This document shows positions 32,430 through 40,897 of a stretch of DNA of 64,000 bases, piece by piece. The DNA is from Achromobacter sp. MYb9. GTDB lineage: Bacteria > Pseudomonadota > Gammaproteobacteria > Burkholderiales > Burkholderiaceae_B. Below the pieces are notes generated by a model. The model saw only the letters and a program-made list of their open reading frames with translations. It was not told where the DNA came from and searched no databases. The translations under genes were made by a program, and so were the position numbers. The stretch's first letter is position 1. Each line of letters begins with the position of its first letter. The stretch covers positions 372,001-436,000 of the forward strand of contig NZ_PCOQ01000002.1 in NCBI RefSeq assembly GCF_002975275.1. The letters run 5' to 3'.

Positions 32430-33647
32430 ATGTCCAGCATTTCCAGCCCCGTCCTTGGCACGCCCCTGTCCCCCCTGGCCACCCGAGTCATGCTGCTCGG
32501 GTCGGGTGAATTGGGTAAAGAGGTCATCATTGCCCTGCAGAGGCTGGGCGTGGAAGTCATTGCGGTGGACCGGTACGCGGATGCGCCGGGCCACCAGGTG
32601 GCGCACCGGGCGCACGTGGTCTCGATGACCGACGCGGACGCCCTGAAGAAGATCATCGAACAGGAACGGCCGCACGTTATTGTCCCCGAAATCGAGGCTA
32701 TTGCCACGAGTTTGCTGGTGGAACTGGAAGCGGCCGGCGTGGCGCGCGTGACCCCGACCGCCCGCGCGGCCCAATTGACCATGAACCGCGAGGGTATCCG
32801 CCGCCTGGCGGCCGAGACCCTGGGCCTGCCGACTTCCCCCTATAAATTCGTCGACACCGAGGCGGAACTGCGCGCCGCGATCGACGGCGGCATCGGCTAC
32901 CCCTGCGTCATCAAGCCGGTCATGTCTTCGTCCGGCAAGGGCCAGTCGGTGATCAAAAGCGCGGACGATGTGGGGCAATCGTGGCGCTACGCCCAGGAAG
33001 GCGGCCGCGTGGGCGGTGGCCGGGCCATCGTCGAAGGTTTCATCCGCTTCGACTATGAAATCACCCTGCTGACCGTCCGCGCCCGGGGCGCCGACGGCCG
33101 CGTCGAGACCCACTATTGCGAGCCCATCGGCCACAAGCAGGTCGATGGCGACTACGTCGAAAGCTGGCAGCCGCACCCGATGTCGCCCGCCGCGCTGGCG
33201 CGGGCCCGGGAAATCGCCCTGGCCGTCACGGCCGACCTGGGCGGGCTGGGCATCTTCGGCGTCGAACTGTTCGTGGCCGGCGACCAGGTCTGGTTCTCGG
33301 AAGTCAGCCCGCGTCCGCACGACACGGGCATGGTGACCATGATCACGCAGGCCCAGAACGAATTCGAATTGCACGCCCGCGCGCTGCTGGGGCTGCCGGT
33401 GGACACCCGCCTGCGCCAGCCGGGCGCCAGCAGCGTCATCTATGGCGGGGTGGATGCCGCCGCCGTGTCGTTCCATAACGTGGCGGAAGCCCTGGCGGAA
33501 GCCGGCACGGATATCCGCCTGTTCGGCAAGCCCGAATCCTTCGTCAAGCGCCGCATGGGCGTGGGCCTGGCCGTCGCCGACGATGTCGCGACCGCCCGCG
33601 CCAAGGCCAAGCGCGTGTCCGCCGCCGTTTCGGTTAAGGCGGGCTGA
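32430..33647 (+). CDS. purT: Formate-dependent phosphoribosylglycinamide formyltransferase
   Basis: ATP-grasp enzyme that makes formyl-GAR from GAR, formate and ATP in purine synthesis. The start at MSSISSP gives 405 residues, close to E. coli PurT (392). Landmarks are [53 protein letters not shown] and [14 protein letters not shown]. It is monocistronic, divergent from kdsD, with a terminator at 33703-33733. Confidence 0.96.
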
Positions 33648-33794: not shown

Positions 33795-33823
33795 TTGCGC
33801 TTTCGCACAGTTTGTTCGATAAT
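33795..33823 (+). promoter_or_regulatory. Candidate promoter of the gbsR-cyd region
   Basis: TTGCGC (33795-33800), 17 nt, GATAAT (33818-33823). It has ideal spacing and a -10 close to consensus. The predicted transcription start falls inside the dyad at 33823-33840. Confidence 0.5.
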
Positions 33824-33840
33824 TTCAGGAATTACTGAAA
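33823..33840. promoter_or_regulatory. Candidate operator dyad overlapping the transcription start
   Basis: TTTCAG-GAATTA-CTGAAA, perfect 6 bp arms with a 6 bp spacer, starting at the last base of the putative -10 box. A dimeric winged-helix repressor bound here would block transcription; the adjacent GbsR/MarR gene is the natural candidate. Confidence 0.45.
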
Positions 33841-33855
33841 GCGGTGTAACTGTAT

Positions 33856-33895
33856 TTATCAGCCATGCCGTGATCCGACTCGTTGGCGCTGATAA
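33856..33895. promoter_or_regulatory. Second dyad just upstream of the regulator start codon
   Basis: TTATCAGC (33856-33863) pairs perfectly with GCTGATAA (33888-33895), 24 nt apart, with the right arm ending 3 nt before the ATG. It may be an operator or an mRNA hairpin that hides the ribosome site. Confidence 0.35.
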
Positions 33896-33898
33896 CTC

Positions 33899-34444
33899 AT
33901 GGTTCTTACCCCTCAAAACGAACGCTTCGTGCTGCATTTCGGCGAAATGGGCAGCCGCTGGGGCGTGAACCGCACCGTGGGCCAGATCTACGCCCTGCTG
34001 TTCCTGCATCCCGACCCGCTGAATGCCGACGACATTGCGGAAACGCTGGGGTTCTCGCGCTCGAACGTCAGCCTGGGACTGAAAGAGCTGCAGTCTTGGC
34101 GGCTGGTCAAGCTGATCCACCAGGTGGGCGACCGCCGCGACTACTTCGAGACGCCCAAAGACGTGTGGGAGATCTTCCGCATCCTGATGGAAGAAAAGCG
34201 CAAGCGCGAAATCAATCCCACGCTCACCTTGCTGCGCGACACCTTGCTGGAAACCCCTTCGGGGCCCAACGACGCCTACGCGCAGCAACGCATGACCGAA
34301 ATGCTGGAGCTCATCGAACTGTCTTCCGGATGGTTCGATGAGGTTCAACGCCTGCCCCCGGAGACCGTGCAAAAGCTCATGCGACTGGGTTCGCAAGTGC
34401 AAAAAGTGCTGGGCTTCGCCGGCAAATTGCGGGGCAAGGGCTAA
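33899..34444 (+). CDS. GbsR/MarR-family transcriptional regulator
   Basis: A 181-residue winged-helix protein of the GbsR type. The segment MGSRWGVNRTVGQIYALLFLHPDPLNADDIAETLGFSRSNVSLGLKELQ spans residues about 17-65 and contains the recognition helix; a wing (VGDRRDYFETPKDVW) and a helical dimerisation part follow. Known GbsR members respond to choline or glycine betaine, but this one lies 129 nt upstream of cydA on the same strand, so a role in cytochrome bd control is more likely. Dyads in its leader suggest self-control. Confidence 0.88.
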   Translation: MVLTPQNERFVLHFGEMGSRWGVNRTVGQIYALLFLHPDPLNADDIAETLGFSRSNVSLGLKELQSWRLVKLIHQVGDRRDYFETPKDVWEIFRILMEEKRKREINPTLTLLRDTLLETPSGPNDAYAQQRMTEMLELIELSSGWFDEVQRLPPETVQKLMRLGSQVQKVLGFAGKLRGKG

Positions 34445-34464
34445 GTGGCTCATCCGCCCCGATT

Positions 34465-34474
34465 TTTCAGGAAA
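34465..34474 (+). promoter_or_regulatory. Half-site TTTCAGGAAA upstream of cydA
   Basis: Repeats nine bases, TTTCAGGAA, of the left half of the 33823-33840 dyad, in the 129 nt gap between the regulator and cydA. It has no matching right half. It might be a weaker site for the same regulator. Confidence 0.25.
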
Positions 34475-34573
34475 CCTCTATGAAGTTGTTTGCAACGCCC
34501 GTAACATGGCGCGAGAGACGGCCTGGGAACCATGCCGGTTGCCGCGGCACCTCCACTGCTTGGGAGCGCCCCA

Positions 34574-36148
34574 ATGATTGATCTCGACGTTGTAAATCTG
34601 TCGCGATTCCAGTTTGCCGCGACCGCGCTTTACCACTTCCTGTTCGTCCCTCTCACGCTTGGCCTGTCGTTCATCCTGGCCATCATGGAAAGCGTGTACG
34701 TCATGACCGGCCGCCCCATCTGGAAGCGGATGACCATGTTCTGGGGCACGCTTTTCGGCATCAATTTCGCGCTCGGCGTCGCCACCGGGGTGGTGATGGA
34801 ATTCCAGTTCGGTATGAACTGGTCTTACTACAGCCACTACGTAGGCGACATCTTCGGCGCCCCGCTTGCGCTGGAAGGGCTGATGGCCTTCTTCCTGGAA
34901 GCCACCTTCGTCGGCCTGTTCTTCTTCGGCTGGAACCGCATGTCCAAGGTCAGCCACCTGGTGGTGACCTGGCTGGTGGCGTTCGGCACGAACTTCTCGG
35001 CCCTGTGGATCCTGATCGCCAACGGCTGGATGCAGAACCCGGTGGGCGCGATTTTCAATCCCGACACCATGCGCATGGAGATGACCGACTTCGCGGCGGT
35101 GATCTTCAACCCGGTGGCGCAAGCCAAGTTCGTGCACACGGTCAGCGCGGGCTACGTGGCCGGCGCCATGTTCGTGATGTCGATCAGCGCCTGGTACCTG
35201 TTGAAGGGGCGTCATACCGACCTGGCCAAGCGTTCGATGGCGGTGGCCGCCAGCTTCGGCCTGGCGGGCGCGCTGTCGGTCGTGGTGCTGGGCGACGAAA
35301 GCGGCTACCTGACCACGGAACACCAGAAGATGAAGATCGCGGCGATGGAGTCGATGTGGCACACCGAGCCCGCGCCGGCATCCTTCAACCTGATCGCGAT
35401 CCCCAACCAGGCTGAACGCAAGAACGACTTCGCCATCGAGATCCCGTACGTCATGGGCATCATCGGCACGCGTTCCCTGACCACGCCGCTGCTGGGCATC
35501 GATGACCTGATCCTGCGCGCTGAAAACCGCATCCGCGATGGCATGGTTGCCTACGACGCGTTGCAGAAAATCCGCGCCAATCCCAAGGACGTGGACGCGC
35601 GCCTGACGTTCGACAAGACCTGGCCCGACCTGGGCTACGCCTTGCTGGTCAAGCGGTATCAGGAAGACATGAGCAAGGTCACCGAAGCCGATATCAAGAA
35701 GGCCGCGGTGGACACCGTGCCCAATGTGGCGCCGCTGTTCTGGGCGTTCCGCATCATGGTGGCGGTGGGCATGTACCTGATTCTGTTCTTCGGCGTGGCG
35801 TTCTGGCTGGCCTCTCGCGGCCGCCTCGATAGCCGCCGCGGCCTGCTCAAGGTGGCGTTGTGGAGCCTGCCGCTGCCATGGGTCGCCATTGAAAGCGGCT
35901 GGTTCGTGGCTGAATACGGCCGCCAGCCCTGGGTGATCGAGGGTGTGCTGCCAACGTACTACGCCGCCTCGGGCCTGACGATCGCCGACCTGGCCATCAG
36001 CCTGGCTATCTTCCTGGTGCTGTACACGGTCCTGCTGATCATTGGCGTGAAGGTAATGTTGCACGCCATCAAGGCGGGTCCGAAATCCGATGGGCCGACG
36101 GCGGGCAACGCCGCCGCCGATCCTGTGCGCGCCGCCGTGCGCGCCTGA
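34574..36148 (+). CDS. cydA: Cytochrome bd ubiquinol oxidase subunit I
   Basis: Carries the haems b558, b595 and d and the quinol site of the high-affinity terminal oxidase. I start at MIDLDVVNLSRFQFA (524 residues; E. coli 522). His21 in ALYHFLF corresponds to the high-spin haem ligand, and KFVHTVSAGYVAGA holds the b558 ligand. The GRQPW motif is present. The periplasmic Q-loop region (about residues 255-380) appears full length, as in E. coli, and not the short type. It is the first structural gene of the operon. Confidence 0.96.
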   Translation: MIDLDVVNLSRFQFAATALYHFLFVPLTLGLSFILAIMESVYVMTGRPIWKRMTMFWGTLFGINFALGVATGVVMEFQFGMNWSYYSHYVGDIFGAPLALEGLMAFFLEATFVGLFFFGWNRMSKVSHLVVTWLVAFGTNFSALWILIANGWMQNPVGAIFNPDTMRMEMTDFAAVIFNPVAQAKFVHTVSAGYVAGAMFVMSISAWYLLKGRHTDLAKRSMAVAASFGLAGALSVVVLGDESGYLTTEHQKMKIAAMESMWHTEPAPASFNLIAIPNQAERKNDFAIEIPYVMGIIGTRSLTTPLLGIDDLILRAENRIRDGMVAYDALQKIRANPKDVDARLTFDKTWPDLGYALLVKRYQEDMSKVTEADIKKAAVDTVPNVAPLFWAFRIMVAVGMYLILFFGVAFWLASRGRLDSRRGLLKVALWSLPLPWVAIESGWFVAEYGRQPWVIEGVLPTYYAASGLTIADLAISLAIFLVLYTVLLIIGVKVMLHAIKAGPKSDGPTAGNAAADPVRAAVRA

Positions 36149-36161
36149 GGGGGAGAAGCAG

Positions 36162-37316
36162 ATGGATACCCTTATTCCTTTTGACTATGGCACCTTGCGC
36201 GTGATCTGGTGGGTGCTGCTGGGCGCGTTGCTGATCGGCTTCGCCGTCATGGACGGCTTCGACCTGGGGGTGGCCGCCTTGCTGCCCGTCGTGGCCAAGA
36301 CCGACGCCGAGCGCCGCGTGGTGATCAACGTGGTCGGCCCCGTGTGGGAAGGCAACCAGGTCTGGCTGATCACGGCGGGCGGCGCGATCTTCGCTGCCTG
36401 GCCGCTGCTGTATGCCGCGTCGTTCTCCGGGTTCTACCTGGCGATGATGTTGGCGTTGATTGCGCTGATCCTGCGTCCCGTGGGCTTCAAGTACCGCAGC
36501 AAGATGGAAGGCAGCCGCTGGCGCAACAGCTGGGATGGCGTGCTGTGTTTTTCGGGCGTGGTGGCCTCGCTGGTATTCGGCGTGGCGGTCGGCAACATCA
36601 TTCTGGGCGTGCCGTTCACGTTCCAGGGTTCCGCGCTGCGAATGATGTACGAAGGCCATTTCTACCAGCTGTTCACGCCGTTCGCGCTATTGTGCGGCGT
36701 GTTGAGCGTGGTGATGCTGGCCATGCACGGCGCGGTGCTGCTGGCCTGGCGCACGGAAGACCCCATTTCGTCGCGGGCCCGCAATTGGGGGCGTCTGCTG
36801 GCGTTGCTGACGGTGGCGCTGTTCGTCGCGGGCGGCTTCTGGGTCGCGGGCGGTCTCAACGGCCACGTCATCACCAGCGCGGTCGACATGAAGGGGCCGT
36901 CGGACCCCATGCTCAAGTCCGTGAGCGTGCAGGCCGGCGCCTGGATGGCCAACTACGCGAAATGGCCGTTGATGTGGATCGCGCCCGCGCTGGGCGTGGC
37001 CGGTGCGGTGCTGGTGCTGCTGCTCTTGAGCGTGCGCGCCCATGTCCTGTCGTTCCTGGCCTCTGCGCTGTCGATCGCGGGCGTCATCCTGACCGTGGGC
37101 TTTTCGCTGTTCCCGTTCCTGATGCCGTCGTCGACCAACCCGCAAGCCGGCCTGACCGTCTGGGACGCGTCGTCCAGCCATCTGACGCTGTGGATCATGG
37201 TGATCGCGGTGGTCATCTTCCTGCCTATCGTCACGCTCTACACCGCCTGGGTGTATCGCGTCATGCGCGGCAAGGTCACCCATGATTCCGTGGGCGACAC
37301 GCCCAACTCTTACTGA
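36162..37316 (+). CDS. cydB: Cytochrome bd ubiquinol oxidase subunit II
   Basis: Membrane partner of CydA, 384 residues with about eight helices. The conserved N-terminal run includes WWVLLGALLIGFAVMDGFDLG and GPVWEGNQVWLI. GGGGGAGAAG lies just upstream of the ATG. It starts 13 nt after cydA and is followed by cydX. Length agrees with E. coli CydB (379). Confidence 0.96.
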   Translation: MDTLIPFDYGTLRVIWWVLLGALLIGFAVMDGFDLGVAALLPVVAKTDAERRVVINVVGPVWEGNQVWLITAGGAIFAAWPLLYAASFSGFYLAMMLALIALILRPVGFKYRSKMEGSRWRNSWDGVLCFSGVVASLVFGVAVGNIILGVPFTFQGSALRMMYEGHFYQLFTPFALLCGVLSVVMLAMHGAVLLAWRTEDPISSRARNWGRLLALLTVALFVAGGFWVAGGLNGHVITSAVDMKGPSDPMLKSVSVQAGAWMANYAKWPLMWIAPALGVAGAVLVLLLLSVRAHVLSFLASALSIAGVILTVGFSLFPFLMPSSTNPQAGLTVWDASSSHLTLWIMVIAVVIFLPIVTLYTAWVYRVMRGKVTHDSVGDTPNSY

Positions 37317-37332: not shown

Positions 37333-37458
37333 ATGTGGTATTTCTCGTGGATACTCGGCTTGGGCCTGGCGTGTGCGTTCGCTATCCTCAATGCAATGTG
37401 GTTCGAGCTGCGCGAAGGGCATTCGCATGACCCGCGCGCCAGCCGTGGCGACGAGTGA
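37333..37458 (+). CDS. cydX: Cytochrome bd small subunit CydX
   Basis: A 41-residue one-helix protein required for stable CydAB. It begins MWYFSWILGLGLACAFAI with the conserved Trp-Tyr-Phe and the membrane helix, then NAMWFELRE and a hydrophilic tail. AAGGAGCC precedes the ATG. It lies 16 nt after cydB, and its TGA overlaps the GTG start of cydD, so it is part of the operon. It is easily missed because of its size. Confidence 0.93.
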   Translation: MWYFSWILGLGLACAFAILNAMWFELREGHSHDPRASRGDE

Positions 37459-39206
37459 GCGGCGGCGCTAGCACCCTCGAGCACGATCCCTCGGCCAGTC
37501 TGCAGAAACCGCCGCGCGAACAGTCGCGGTGGTTGATGGCGCTTGCCAAGGCGGCGAGGGTTCCATTGATGCTGGCGGGGGCCGCGCCGCTGGTCAGCGG
37601 CGCCTTGCTGGTCGTGCAGGCGTGGCTGCTGGCCAGCGTGCTGGACGCGGCCATCGTCCGCCAGGCGCCGCGCCAGGAATTGCTGGGCGCCATCTTGGGC
37701 ATCGCCGGGTTGATGTTGCTGCGCGCGTGCATCACCTGGGCCGGGGAGCGCGCCGGGGCGGACGCCGCTGAACGCATCAAGCGCCACGTGCGCCAGGCGC
37801 TGTTTGCCCGGTTGGTGGCGAAGGGGCCGTACTGGAGCCGCGGCAAGGCGTCGGGTGAATTGGCCAGCGCGGTCGTCGACCAGGTCGAGGCGTTGGACGG
37901 CTTCTTTGCCAAGTACCTGCCCGCGATGGCCGCAGCCGCGATGTTGCCGGTGGCGTTTTCGGTGCTGTTGTTGCCGGTGGACGTGATCGCGGGTCTGGTG
38001 TTGTTGATCACCGCGCCGCTGATCCCGCTGTTCATGGCGTTGGTGGGGTGGGGCGCGCAAGGCGCCAGCCGCCGTCACCTGCGTGCTTTCGCTCGCTTGT
38101 CCGGCTTTTTCGCCGACCGCCTGCGCGGGCTGTCCACGTTGAAACTCTATGGCCGGGCGCAAGCCGAGGCGGCCTCTGTCGTGGCCGCCAGCGATGCGTT
38201 GCGCCAGCGCACGATGTCGGTGCTGCGCATCGCTTTCCTGTCGTCCGCGGTACTGGAGTTTTTCGCCGCGCTGGGCGTGGCGGGAGTGGCCGTATATATC
38301 GGCCTGACCTATCTTGGATTCCTGGACCTGCGGTGGTCGCCTCTGACCTTGCAGGCGGGCCTGTTCTGCCTGTTGATGGCGCCGGAGGTCTATGCGCCGT
38401 TGCGCCAGTTCGCCGCGCACTATCACGACCGCGCCACGGCGTTGGCGGCCGTGACGCAGATCGCCGTGCTGTTCGATGGCCTGCCGCAAGATGCCGAAGC
38501 TGGTCCGGCCGCGCCGGGGGCGGTCGCGCTGGCTGCGTCCGGTGCGGGCGCGCAGGTCGACGTGATTGGCTTGCGCGTGAACGCGCCCGGACGCGGGCAG
38601 ACTGTTCTGGATGGCGCCGGATTGCATCTGGCGCCGGGCGAGCAGGTCGCGTTGATGGGGCCCAGTGGCATCGGCAAGTCCACGTTGATCGAAGCCCTTG
38701 CGCGCTTGCGGCCGTTTGACGGCGAGGTCCGCATCGACGGCGTGCCGCTGGCCGACTGGGATGAAGCTGTCTTGCGCCAGCGCGTGGCGCTGATCGGGCA
38801 AAAGCCGCAGCTGCTGGCGGGGTCGATTGCCGACAACCTCCGGCTGGGCCGCCCGGGCGCGTCCGATGCCGAATTGCGCGACGCGGCCCGCCGCGCCTGT
38901 GTGCTGGAATTTTCGGACGAGCTGCCGCAAGGCCTGGACACGCCGCTGGGCAGCCGCGGCCATGGCCTGTCAGGCGGGCAGGCGCAGCGTGTTGCGCTGG
39001 CGCGCCTGTTCCTGCGGGATCCCGGGCTGATCCTCCTGGACGAACCCACGGCGCATCTCGACGAGGCTACCCAGGCCCGGGTGCTGGATGAAATCCTGGA
39101 ATTCTCCGTGGGCCGCACGTTGCTGCTGGCCACGCATGCGCCGGCGGTCGCGGCCCGGTTCGGTCGCGTGCTGCGGGTAGCGAGCGGAAAAGTGGAAGAC
39201 GCATGA
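37455..39206 (+). CDS. cydD: Glutathione/cysteine exporter ABC subunit CydD
   Basis: Half-transporter that with CydC exports cysteine or glutathione and is needed to assemble cytochrome bd. Six membrane helices (about residues 30-320) precede an ATPase domain with Walker A GPSGIGKST, signature LSGGQAQRVALARL and Walker B LILLDEPTAHLDEAT. The start is a GTG overlapping the cydX stop (GTGA). At 583 residues it matches E. coli CydD (588). Confidence 0.94.
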   Translation: MSGGASTLEHDPSASLQKPPREQSRWLMALAKAARVPLMLAGAAPLVSGALLVVQAWLLASVLDAAIVRQAPRQELLGAILGIAGLMLLRACITWAGERAGADAAERIKRHVRQALFARLVAKGPYWSRGKASGELASAVVDQVEALDGFFAKYLPAMAAAAMLPVAFSVLLLPVDVIAGLVLLITAPLIPLFMALVGWGAQGASRRHLRAFARLSGFFADRLRGLSTLKLYGRAQAEAASVVAASDALRQRTMSVLRIAFLSSAVLEFFAALGVAGVAVYIGLTYLGFLDLRWSPLTLQAGLFCLLMAPEVYAPLRQFAAHYHDRATALAAVTQIAVLFDGLPQDAEAGPAAPGAVALAASGAGAQVDVIGLRVNAPGRGQTVLDGAGLHLAPGEQVALMGPSGIGKSTLIEALARLRPFDGEVRIDGVPLADWDEAVLRQRVALIGQKPQLLAGSIADNLRLGRPGASDAELRDAARRACVLEFSDELPQGLDTPLGSRGHGLSGGQAQRVALARLFLRDPGLILLDEPTAHLDEATQARVLDEILEFSVGRTLLLATHAPAVAARFGRVLRVASGKVEDA

Positions 39207-40897
39207 AGAATTTGCTGTTGCTGGCGCCGTTGTACGCACGCCGAAAAAGCGGGCTTTTGCTCGCATTGTTCTGTGCGTTGGCAACCGTTGCCGCAGGCGT
39301 TGGCCTGTTGGGGGTGTCCGGTTGGTTCCTGACGGGCGCGGCCCTGGCGGGGGCAGGCGGGGTGTTCAACTTGTTCGCGCCGTCGGCGCTGGTGCGCGGC
39401 CTGTCATTTCTGCGCATCGTGTCGCGCTATGCGGATCGCGTCGTGGGCCACTCGGCTACCTTGCGTCTGCTGGCCGATCTGCGCGCCACGGTGTTCGGGG
39501 CGCTGATCAGGCTGACGCCGCGTCAGTTGGCGAAGTACCGCAGCGGCGATCTGGTGGCGCGAATGACGGGCGACGTCGATGCGCTGGATACCGTGTTCCT
39601 GTTCGTGCTGGCGCCGTTGGCGACCGCCATCCTGGGGGGCGCCGTGCTGACCGCAGTGCTTGGCATGTGGGTGCCGGCCGCCGCGCTGACGTTCGCGCTG
39701 GCGTTGCTGGCCGCCTGTGTCCTGGTGCCTGGGTGGCTGCTGCGCGCGGCGCGCAAGCCGGGCGCAGCAGCCCAGGAAAGCGCGTCGGGATTGCGCGCGG
39801 CGACGTTGGACGCGGTGGACGGCCACGCGGACATGGTGGCGTTGCATGCGCAGGCGCCGACCACCGCGCATTTCGAACGGCTGTGCGAAGCCAGCGCGCG
39901 GGCCCGTCGCAGCCAGGCCCGGGTGGCGGCGCGCGGACAGTGGTTCCTGCAAGTCGCGGCGGGCCTGTCGGTGTTGGCGTTGCTGTGGTTCGGGTTGGGG
40001 ACGCATGAGGCCGGGCAGATCGAAGGCCCCGTCCTGGTGGGCTTGTTGCTGGCCGTGATCGGCATTTTCGAAGTGGCGGGGCCGATCATGCGCGGCGCGT
40101 CCCGCATGGGGTCGGCGATGTCGGCCGCGGCGCGCATCCGGGAAGTGACGCAAGCGCAGCCGGACATGCAGGATGCGCCCGTCGTGCGCGCCTTGCCGTC
40201 CGCGGGGGCGCTGGAGCTGGACGGGGTCGTGTTCCGTTATCCGTCCCGGGGGCAGGGTGTGTACCCCGCAGTGCTGGACGGCGTCAGCTTGCGGGTCGAG
40301 CCCGGCGAGCGGGTCGCCATCATGGGGGCAAGCGGGCAGGGCAAATCCACGCTGTTGCATCTGATCCTGCGCCTGGAGGATCCGCAGTCGGGACAGGTGC
40401 GCTTCGGCGGCTGCGATGCGCGCGATTGCACGCAGGCGGATTGGCACCGGCGCATTGCATTGCTGTCCCAGGACGCCCCGGTGTTCCTGGGTACCTTGCG
40501 CACGAATCTGCTGATCGGCGACCCCGACGCGGACGATGCGGCGCTATGGGGTGCGTTGGACGCGGCCAGGCTGGGCGATTTCGTGCGTGGCCTGCCCGAC
40601 GGACTGGACACGTGGGCGGGCGAGACCGGTTCGCAGCTGTCGGCGGGCCAGGCGCGCCGCCTGTGCCTGGCGCGGGCGCTGCTGTCGCCAGCGGCGGTCA
40701 TCGTGCTGGACGAACCCACCGCAGGTCTGGACGCCGCGGCGCAGACCGACTTTTTCAATGACCTGGAACGCGCGGTGCGGGGACGCACGGTGGTGCTGGC
40801 CACGCACGCGGCCTTGCCCGCCGGCGCGGTCGACCGCTGCTACGAGTTGCGTCACGCTCGATTACATGACTTGTCACGGGAGGCAATCCTGGCTTAA
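39203..40897 (+). CDS. cydC: Glutathione/cysteine exporter ABC subunit CydC
   Basis: Partner of CydD, 564 residues. The N-terminal membrane domain is typical (LGVSGWFLTGAALAG with SFLRIVSRYADRVVGH). The ATPase domain has Walker A GASGQGKST, the deviant signature LSAGQARRLCLARAL and Walker B VIVLDEPTAGLD. The signature deviates at the second Gly (LSAGQ), common in CydC. It overlaps cydD by 4 nt. A small dyad, GCAAGG/CCTTGC (40906-40927), follows its stop. Confidence 0.94.
   Translation: MKNLLLLAPLYARRKSGLLLALFCALATVAAGVGLLGVSGWFLTGAALAGAGGVFNLFAPSALVRGLSFLRIVSRYADRVVGHSATLRLLADLRATVFGALIRLTPRQLAKYRSGDLVARMTGDVDALDTVFLFVLAPLATAILGGAVLTAVLGMWVPAAALTFALALLAACVLVPGWLLRAARKPGAAAQESASGLRAATLDAVDGHADMVALHAQAPTTAHFERLCEASARARRSQARVAARGQWFLQVAAGLSVLALLWFGLGTHEAGQIEGPVLVGLLLAVIGIFEVAGPIMRGASRMGSAMSAAARIREVTQAQPDMQDAPVVRALPSAGALELDGVVFRYPSRGQGVYPAVLDGVSLRVEPGERVAIMGASGQGKSTLLHLILRLEDPQSGQVRFGGCDARDCTQADWHRRIALLSQDAPVFLGTLRTNLLIGDPDADDAALWGALDAARLGDFVRGLPDGLDTWAGETGSQLSAGQARRLCLARALLSPAAVIVLDEPTAGLDAAAQTDFFNDLERAVRGRTVVLATHAALPAGAVDRCYELRHARLHDLSREAILA

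Follow-up and report, generated by a model that had tools for sequence, protein, structure and literature searches.

GbsR-type regulators of the genes for cytochrome bd oxidase, a respiratory enzyme that tolerates stress, have already been characterized outside Achromobacter. In Alishewanella sp. WH16-1, the GbsR-type protein CydE is encoded by the first gene of cydEAB, which it represses, sulfate causing derepression; its DNase footprint protects TATTTCAGAAATTTCTGAAAGTTCA and GGGATGCGCATATGCAAAT (Xia et al. 2018, PMC6096048, in the excerpts available). Excerpts of a second paper (Batista et al. 2025, PMC11837568) describe Chromobacterium violaceum CioR, a GbsR-type repressor of cioRAB which is encoded upstream of the bd oxidase genes and binds its own promoter; cyanide induction depends on CioR, and Zn or Fe abolish binding in vitro. 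Finally, the available part of a family survey (PMC6207618) reports that 34 of 179 gbsR-type genes adjoin cyd genes, adopts the name CydE, and finds CydE proteins to be 19-21% identical to B. subtilis GbsR. Given these two systems and the survey count, control of bd oxidases by this family is not new, and the terminal oxidase role that the initial annotation of our locus presented as a different use of the family has been in print since 2018.

The locus studied here belongs to Achromobacter sp. MYb9; the observation is sound, but the regulatory unit was already known from other genera. The locus lies within the window, i.e. the whole 64,000-nucleotide stretch analysed, in the + strand order purT, regulator, cydA, cydB, cydX, cydD, cydC:

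purT, ending at 33647, + strand: gene preceding the regulator
33795..33823, + strand: cydE promoter, TTGCGC - 17 nt - GATAAT, read directly, conserved in the genus, without a call in the generic scan
33823..33840, unstranded: putative CydE operator TTTCAG-N6-CTGAAA, TTTCAGGAATTACTGAAA, overlapping the -10 box and the expected start site
33899..34444, + strand: cydE, GbsR-type MarR regulator, 181 aa
34465..34473, + strand: TTTCAGGAA, half-site look-alike, read as the leader ORF Shine-Dalgarno
34480..34581, + strand: leader ORF, 33 codons, its stop overlapping the cydA start; translational coupling probable
34574..36148, + strand: cydA, cytochrome bd subunit I
36162..37316, + strand: cydB, subunit II
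37333..37458, + strand: cydX, small subunit
37455..39206, + strand: cydD
39203..40897, + strand: cydC

As in the available account of Alishewanella, a GbsR-type gene comes first in a cyd operon behind the operator bases TTTCAG-N6-CTGAAA, but the operon is cydEAB there and cydE-leader ORF-cydABX-DC here. CioR is likewise a GbsR-type regulator encoded upstream of bd oxidase genes, but it controls the short-Q-loop oxidase CioAB, on which quorum sensing and OsbR also act, and its binding site is assigned no motif (PMC11837568, excerpts). The Firmicutes proteins GbsR, OpuAR and OpcR belong to the same MarR-family branch and have an Mj223-like architecture, but their genes and ligands are those of choline and betaine (PMC6207618, available part). 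No report on CydE or CioR in Achromobacter was found among the literature matches listed.

Regulator Family and Genomic Context

The regulator matches Pfam MarR_2. Searching the PDB with a profile of 46 cyd-linked relatives retrieved Mj223 of M. jannaschii (1ku9) with an E-value of 1.8e-20, and 1ku9 was also ranked first (E 3.8e-09) when the predicted structure of the regulator (mean pLDDT 88.4, pTM 0.70) was compared with the PDB. As Mj223 served as the modelling template for GbsR (PMC6207618, available part), the GbsR-type label given by the initial annotation is right. Because CudC, a choline regulator, is the top-scoring NCBIfam model (E 2.5e-15), one could suspect a sensor of choline or betaine comparable to GbsR of B. 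subtilis, lying beside cyd genes by chance. However, this match reaches only 56.7 bits for a cut-off of 218; the gene is flanked by purT and cyd genes in all 43 Achromobacter loci, instead of betaine synthesis or Opu transport genes; and, according to the part of the survey available (PMC6207618), only members of the osmostress group possess the aromatic cage, which is missing from Alishewanella CydE. We thus regard chance neighbourhood of such a sensor as extremely improbable.

The regulator gene is located upstream of cydA, on the same strand, in 43/43 Achromobacter loci, and no + strand terminator-like site was found in the cydE-cydA interval. The genome carries two more relatives of bd-type subunit I, at G000:C6:120154-121473 and G000:C1:710446-711762 (39-40% and 27% identity); in the 1.5 kb upstream of them, the best CydE-type matches are 10/12 and 8/12, and neither is a convincing site.

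A Single Conserved Putative Operator at the cydE Promoter

Direct reading places TTGCGC at 33795-33800 and, after a 17-nt spacer, GATAAT at 33818-33823, the last T of this -10 box being also the first base of the dyad TTTCAGGAATTACTGAAA. The transcription start is expected to fall inside the dyad. A generic sigma-70 scan called no promoter at 33795-33823, where TTGCGC fits the consensus at 3/6 by reading. The promoter and its overlap with a perfect dyad are nevertheless as initially described, and near-invariant in the genus: TTTGCG and GTTTGTTCGATAATTTCAG are nearly unchanged across 43 Achromobacter genomes (our genus search, own genome included), and among ten inspected loci from related genera, seven share TTCGATAATTTCAG (L130-L135 and L139, not L136-L138). 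A -10-like hexamer stands in the same register (5/6) in 38 of 42 Achromobacter loci, versus 19 of 68 others with 5 or 6/6, so that the dyad/-10 overlap is the rule in Achromobacter and a minority arrangement outside.

Conservation of the dyad was evaluated in 162 regulator loci chosen among the matches listed, after dropping those that repeat genomes already included (L126-L129 and L190). A co-oriented cydA relative is present in the stretch taken for 113 of them (L096 being counted as cyd-linked although its cydA relative precedes the regulator) and not for the other 49, some of which may have cydA farther off, as the 3.5-kb loci cover 1.5 kb on each side. Within 250 nt upstream of the 113 cyd-linked regulators, the best match to TTTCAG-N6-CTGAAA scores 12/12 in 69 loci, 11 in 33, 10 in eight, 9 in two and 7 in one. 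At least 11/12 is thus reached in 102/113 loci, a figure which overstates independence because the loci have common ancestry, versus 2 of 2260 dinucleotide shuffles (one at 12, one at 11). The dyad is perfect in 37/43 Achromobacter genomes and scores at least 11/12 in 41/43, the exceptions being L114 (10) and L042 (9); poor sites outside the genus are those of L055 (9/12) and L096 (7/12). In four Achromobacter loci (L037, L114, L115 and L116), the dyad is displaced downstream, after GATAATTTCGGAAA, an arrangement reminiscent of a partial duplication of the site.

The many cyd-linked loci yield the operator consensus A/T-TTTCAG-N-AATT-N-CTGAAA-A/T-T. Scanning the genome for the 12 fixed bases with at most one mismatch, a search proposed with the initial annotation, returned 11 places versus 3 for a reversed control, whereas the 22-bp consensus with at most three mismatches returned the 33823 site alone (reversed control: 0). 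Being the sole match in the genome, the site looks like a dedicated local switch. Within the window, loose matches (at most three mismatches) occur at chance level (10 observed, 10.05 expected).

The first Alishewanella footprint site, TATTTCAGAAATTTCTGAAAGTTCA, and the 33823-33840 dyad agree in all 12 fixed bases. For the second, the best match in our own intergenic region is 12/19, which is no convincing counterpart; across loci, 18/110 reach 12, versus 54/1100 shuffles with at least 12, a slight excess.

Another dyad had been proposed next to the ATG of the regulator. Its arms, TTATCAGC and GCTGATAA, are indeed present inside 33856-33895 by direct reading, but this form exists in only one of the 43 genus genomes, our own, and is absent from the 42 others examined; its interpretation as a ribosome-site hairpin was rejected.

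The cydE-cydA Spacer

It had also been noted that nine bases of the operator recur upstream of cydA. The repeat is real: TTTCAGGAA is present at 33823 and at 34465 (two in the window versus 0.13 expected). At 34465, however, the partner half CTGAAA is missing (1/6 by reading), and the sequence sits just 5' of ATG 34480, the start of a 33-codon ORF which ends at 34581 within cydA, 94 nt separating ATG 34480 from ATG 34574. A true second CydE half-site adding repression within the operon would account for nine bases identical to half of the first dyad and for their retention at the leader in 39/43 genus genomes (TTTCAG alone in 41/43). What is preserved beyond these genomes is the ribosome-binding site: L120 and L123 are without TTTCAG at the leader yet retain GGATAA or AGGAAAA, and the leaders of six loci from related genera (L130, L131, L132, L134, L135 and L139) all lack TTTCAG, although a purine-rich ribosome site remains in them. 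A Shine-Dalgarno-like run precedes the leader ORF in 41/43 genomes by a pattern check, and the two misses, L024 and L032, have AGGGAA by reading. Moreover, a dyad of at least 10/12 occurs within 200 nt downstream of the regulator in none of the 113 cyd-linked loci. A second half-site is therefore very unlikely, and the Shine-Dalgarno sequence of the leader ORF is the better reading of TTTCAGGAA at 34465. Only the first dyad survives among the three sites put forward initially.

The length and frame of the leader ORF are preserved in 41/43 genus rows, and L131, L132 and L134 also carry a 33-codon ORF. A conserved peptide was considered and rejected: the 41 genus rows display 25 synonymous versus 82 non-synonymous changes (null 31.0, sd 4.5), and adding the three related-genus rows gives 44 to 126 (null 48.0), while cydE, the control in the same count, shows 174 to 38. 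The codon count excludes L120 (net 6 nt shorter, frame partly shifted) and L124 (1 nt longer). A structured RNA was unsupported as well, with no hit in Rfam at E-values of up to 1, an RNAalifold z of 0.04 for 38 distinct rows against 100 column shuffles, and hand-read stems which compensating changes do not preserve. Among the literature matches listed for a cydA leader RNA, the closest, PMC5105140, concerns in its available part a trans-acting RNA which base-pairs with Rickettsia cydA close to its 3' end, and not a leader. We propose with modest confidence, on the basis of sequence, that the leader is a translated ORF coupled to cydA.

The spacer block at 34462-34573 is highly conserved across Achromobacter, and neither peptide selection nor a fold above shuffles accounts for this. 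It could hold a second promoter. One may ask whether the 33823 dyad serves autoregulation only, cydA being transcribed from its own promoter in the 130-nt spacer under other oxygen regulators, with 34462-34573 as the control region. This is favoured by the conservation of the block within the genus, but no sigma-70-type site was found in the spacer, and the leader ORF keeps both its frame and the place where it stops, as would fit a transcript reading through from upstream. In addition, RT-PCR showed co-transcription of the regulator gene with the oxidase genes in Alishewanella (PMC6096048) and Chromobacterium (PMC11837568), according to the excerpts available. We consider a separate cydA promoter unlikely and retain a read-through transcript from the cydE promoter.

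Other Burkholderiales (L044-L047, L050, L054 and L060) carry small ORFs of ~70-86 aa with one hydrophobic stretch between cydE and cydA, where Achromobacter has the 33-codon leader. These small ORFs presumably resemble CydP.

A Sister Branch with a Different Putative Operator

A paralogue 50-55% identical to the regulator is encoded in 16 of 43 Achromobacter genomes, our own among them (L070:7958-8470, i.e. G000:C3:206957-207469, - strand), where the genes after it are those of an epimerase-DoxX_3 protein and a DUF2269 protein; the paralogue of other genomes is followed by DCC1-like thiol oxidoreductases. Its operator reads TTTCTG-N6-CAGAAA, with one site before the gene (G000:C3:207496-207513, TTTCTGTCTTGACAGAAA) and one after it (206877-206894, TTTCTGTATAGACAGAAA). 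Allowing at most two mismatches, a genome scan found just one further place (reversed control: 1).

The better upstream pattern in the 49 loci without co-oriented cydA is TTTCTG-N6-CAGAAA in 34, TTTCAG-N6-CTGAAA in 4 and a tie in 11. TTTCTG-N6-CAGAAA scores at least 11/12 upstream in 38/49, downstream (in the 200 nt after the gene) in 24, and on both sides in 23. Positions 14, 28, 31, 52, 53 and 60 distinguish the cyd-linked from the sister alignment. The 112 proteins with Ser53 are associated with the CAG type in 102 cases, the CTG type in none, a mixed operator in 4 and none in 6; for the 42 with Ala53, the counts are 33 CTG, 0 CAG and 9 mixed (8 of the 162 proteins could not be scored at residue 53). 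Nine Ser53 proteins which have Ser60 retain the CAG type, indicating residue 53 rather than 60. The recognition helix begins at residue 54 in the predicted structure. As the two branches are related by descent, the match between residue 53 and operator is a correlation and not proof.

Our tentative proposal, for which the odds are somewhat short of even, is that two sister repressors have diverged by inversion of the inner half-site bases. Ser53, usually with Gly60, would go with TTTCAG-N6-CTGAAA; Ala53, mostly with Thr/Asn59 and Ser60, would go with TTTCTG-N6-CAGAAA, and the genes downstream of this second type encode uncharacterised membrane and redox proteins (epimerase-DoxX, DUF2269, DCC thiol oxidoreductase). 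Residue 53, where the recognition helix begins, would be decisive. If it sets operator choice, a single fold can serve two insulated regulons in the same genome. The cyd-linked L147 combines Ala53 and Gly60 with a mixed operator, as would an intermediate. The paralogue operator and the way it tracks Ala53 versus Ser53 are new here; neither DUF name appears among the literature matches listed for GbsR/MarR with DUF2269 or DUF393.

In L094 (1367-2785), a 472-aa membrane protein whose match to a cytochrome c domain is weak and under the cut-off is encoded after a CydE-like regulator (Ser53, operator 11/12); it is perhaps another haem enzyme under CydE-like control.

Proposed Regulation and Significance

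The position of the operator, its conservation, its uniqueness and the bases it has in common with the published footprint are direct observations. Alongside them, we infer that CydE binds and represses in Achromobacter, with co-transcription and translational coupling. Control of the regulator and the cyd operon by the regulator itself, as initially proposed, is very probable, judging from sequence and analogy, with the dyad in the cydE promoter as the site of action, but not through a second site. With high confidence, we thus take the gene at 33899 to be cydE, its product binding the single 33823 dyad and repressing itself and cydABX, probably also cydDC, with no second site at 34465 and a leader which probably couples cydA translation. 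A CydE dimer would bind the single dyad at 33823-33840 and cover the -10 box and start site, which would block the promoter. From this one promoter, cydE would be transcribed with cydABX and probably cydDC, so that CydE would repress both itself and the operon. Some signal would then release CydE; sulfate is the one reported for Alishewanella CydE, whereas CioR is reported to respond to Zn/Fe in vitro and to cyanide in vivo. Finally, the short ORF using the ribosome-binding site at 34465 ends inside the cydA start and would probably couple cydA translation.

The logic of CydE and CioR was previously known; what is new here is the test of operator conservation, together with the range over which it extends. 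Achromobacter are opportunists of the cystic-fibrosis lung, and our analysis carries a known regulator over to this genus. The operator consensus, being drawn from many cyd-linked loci, makes cyd control predictable from sequence, and the sister-branch operator provides a testable two-way DNA code, together with a first entry point to an operon that is uncharacterised.
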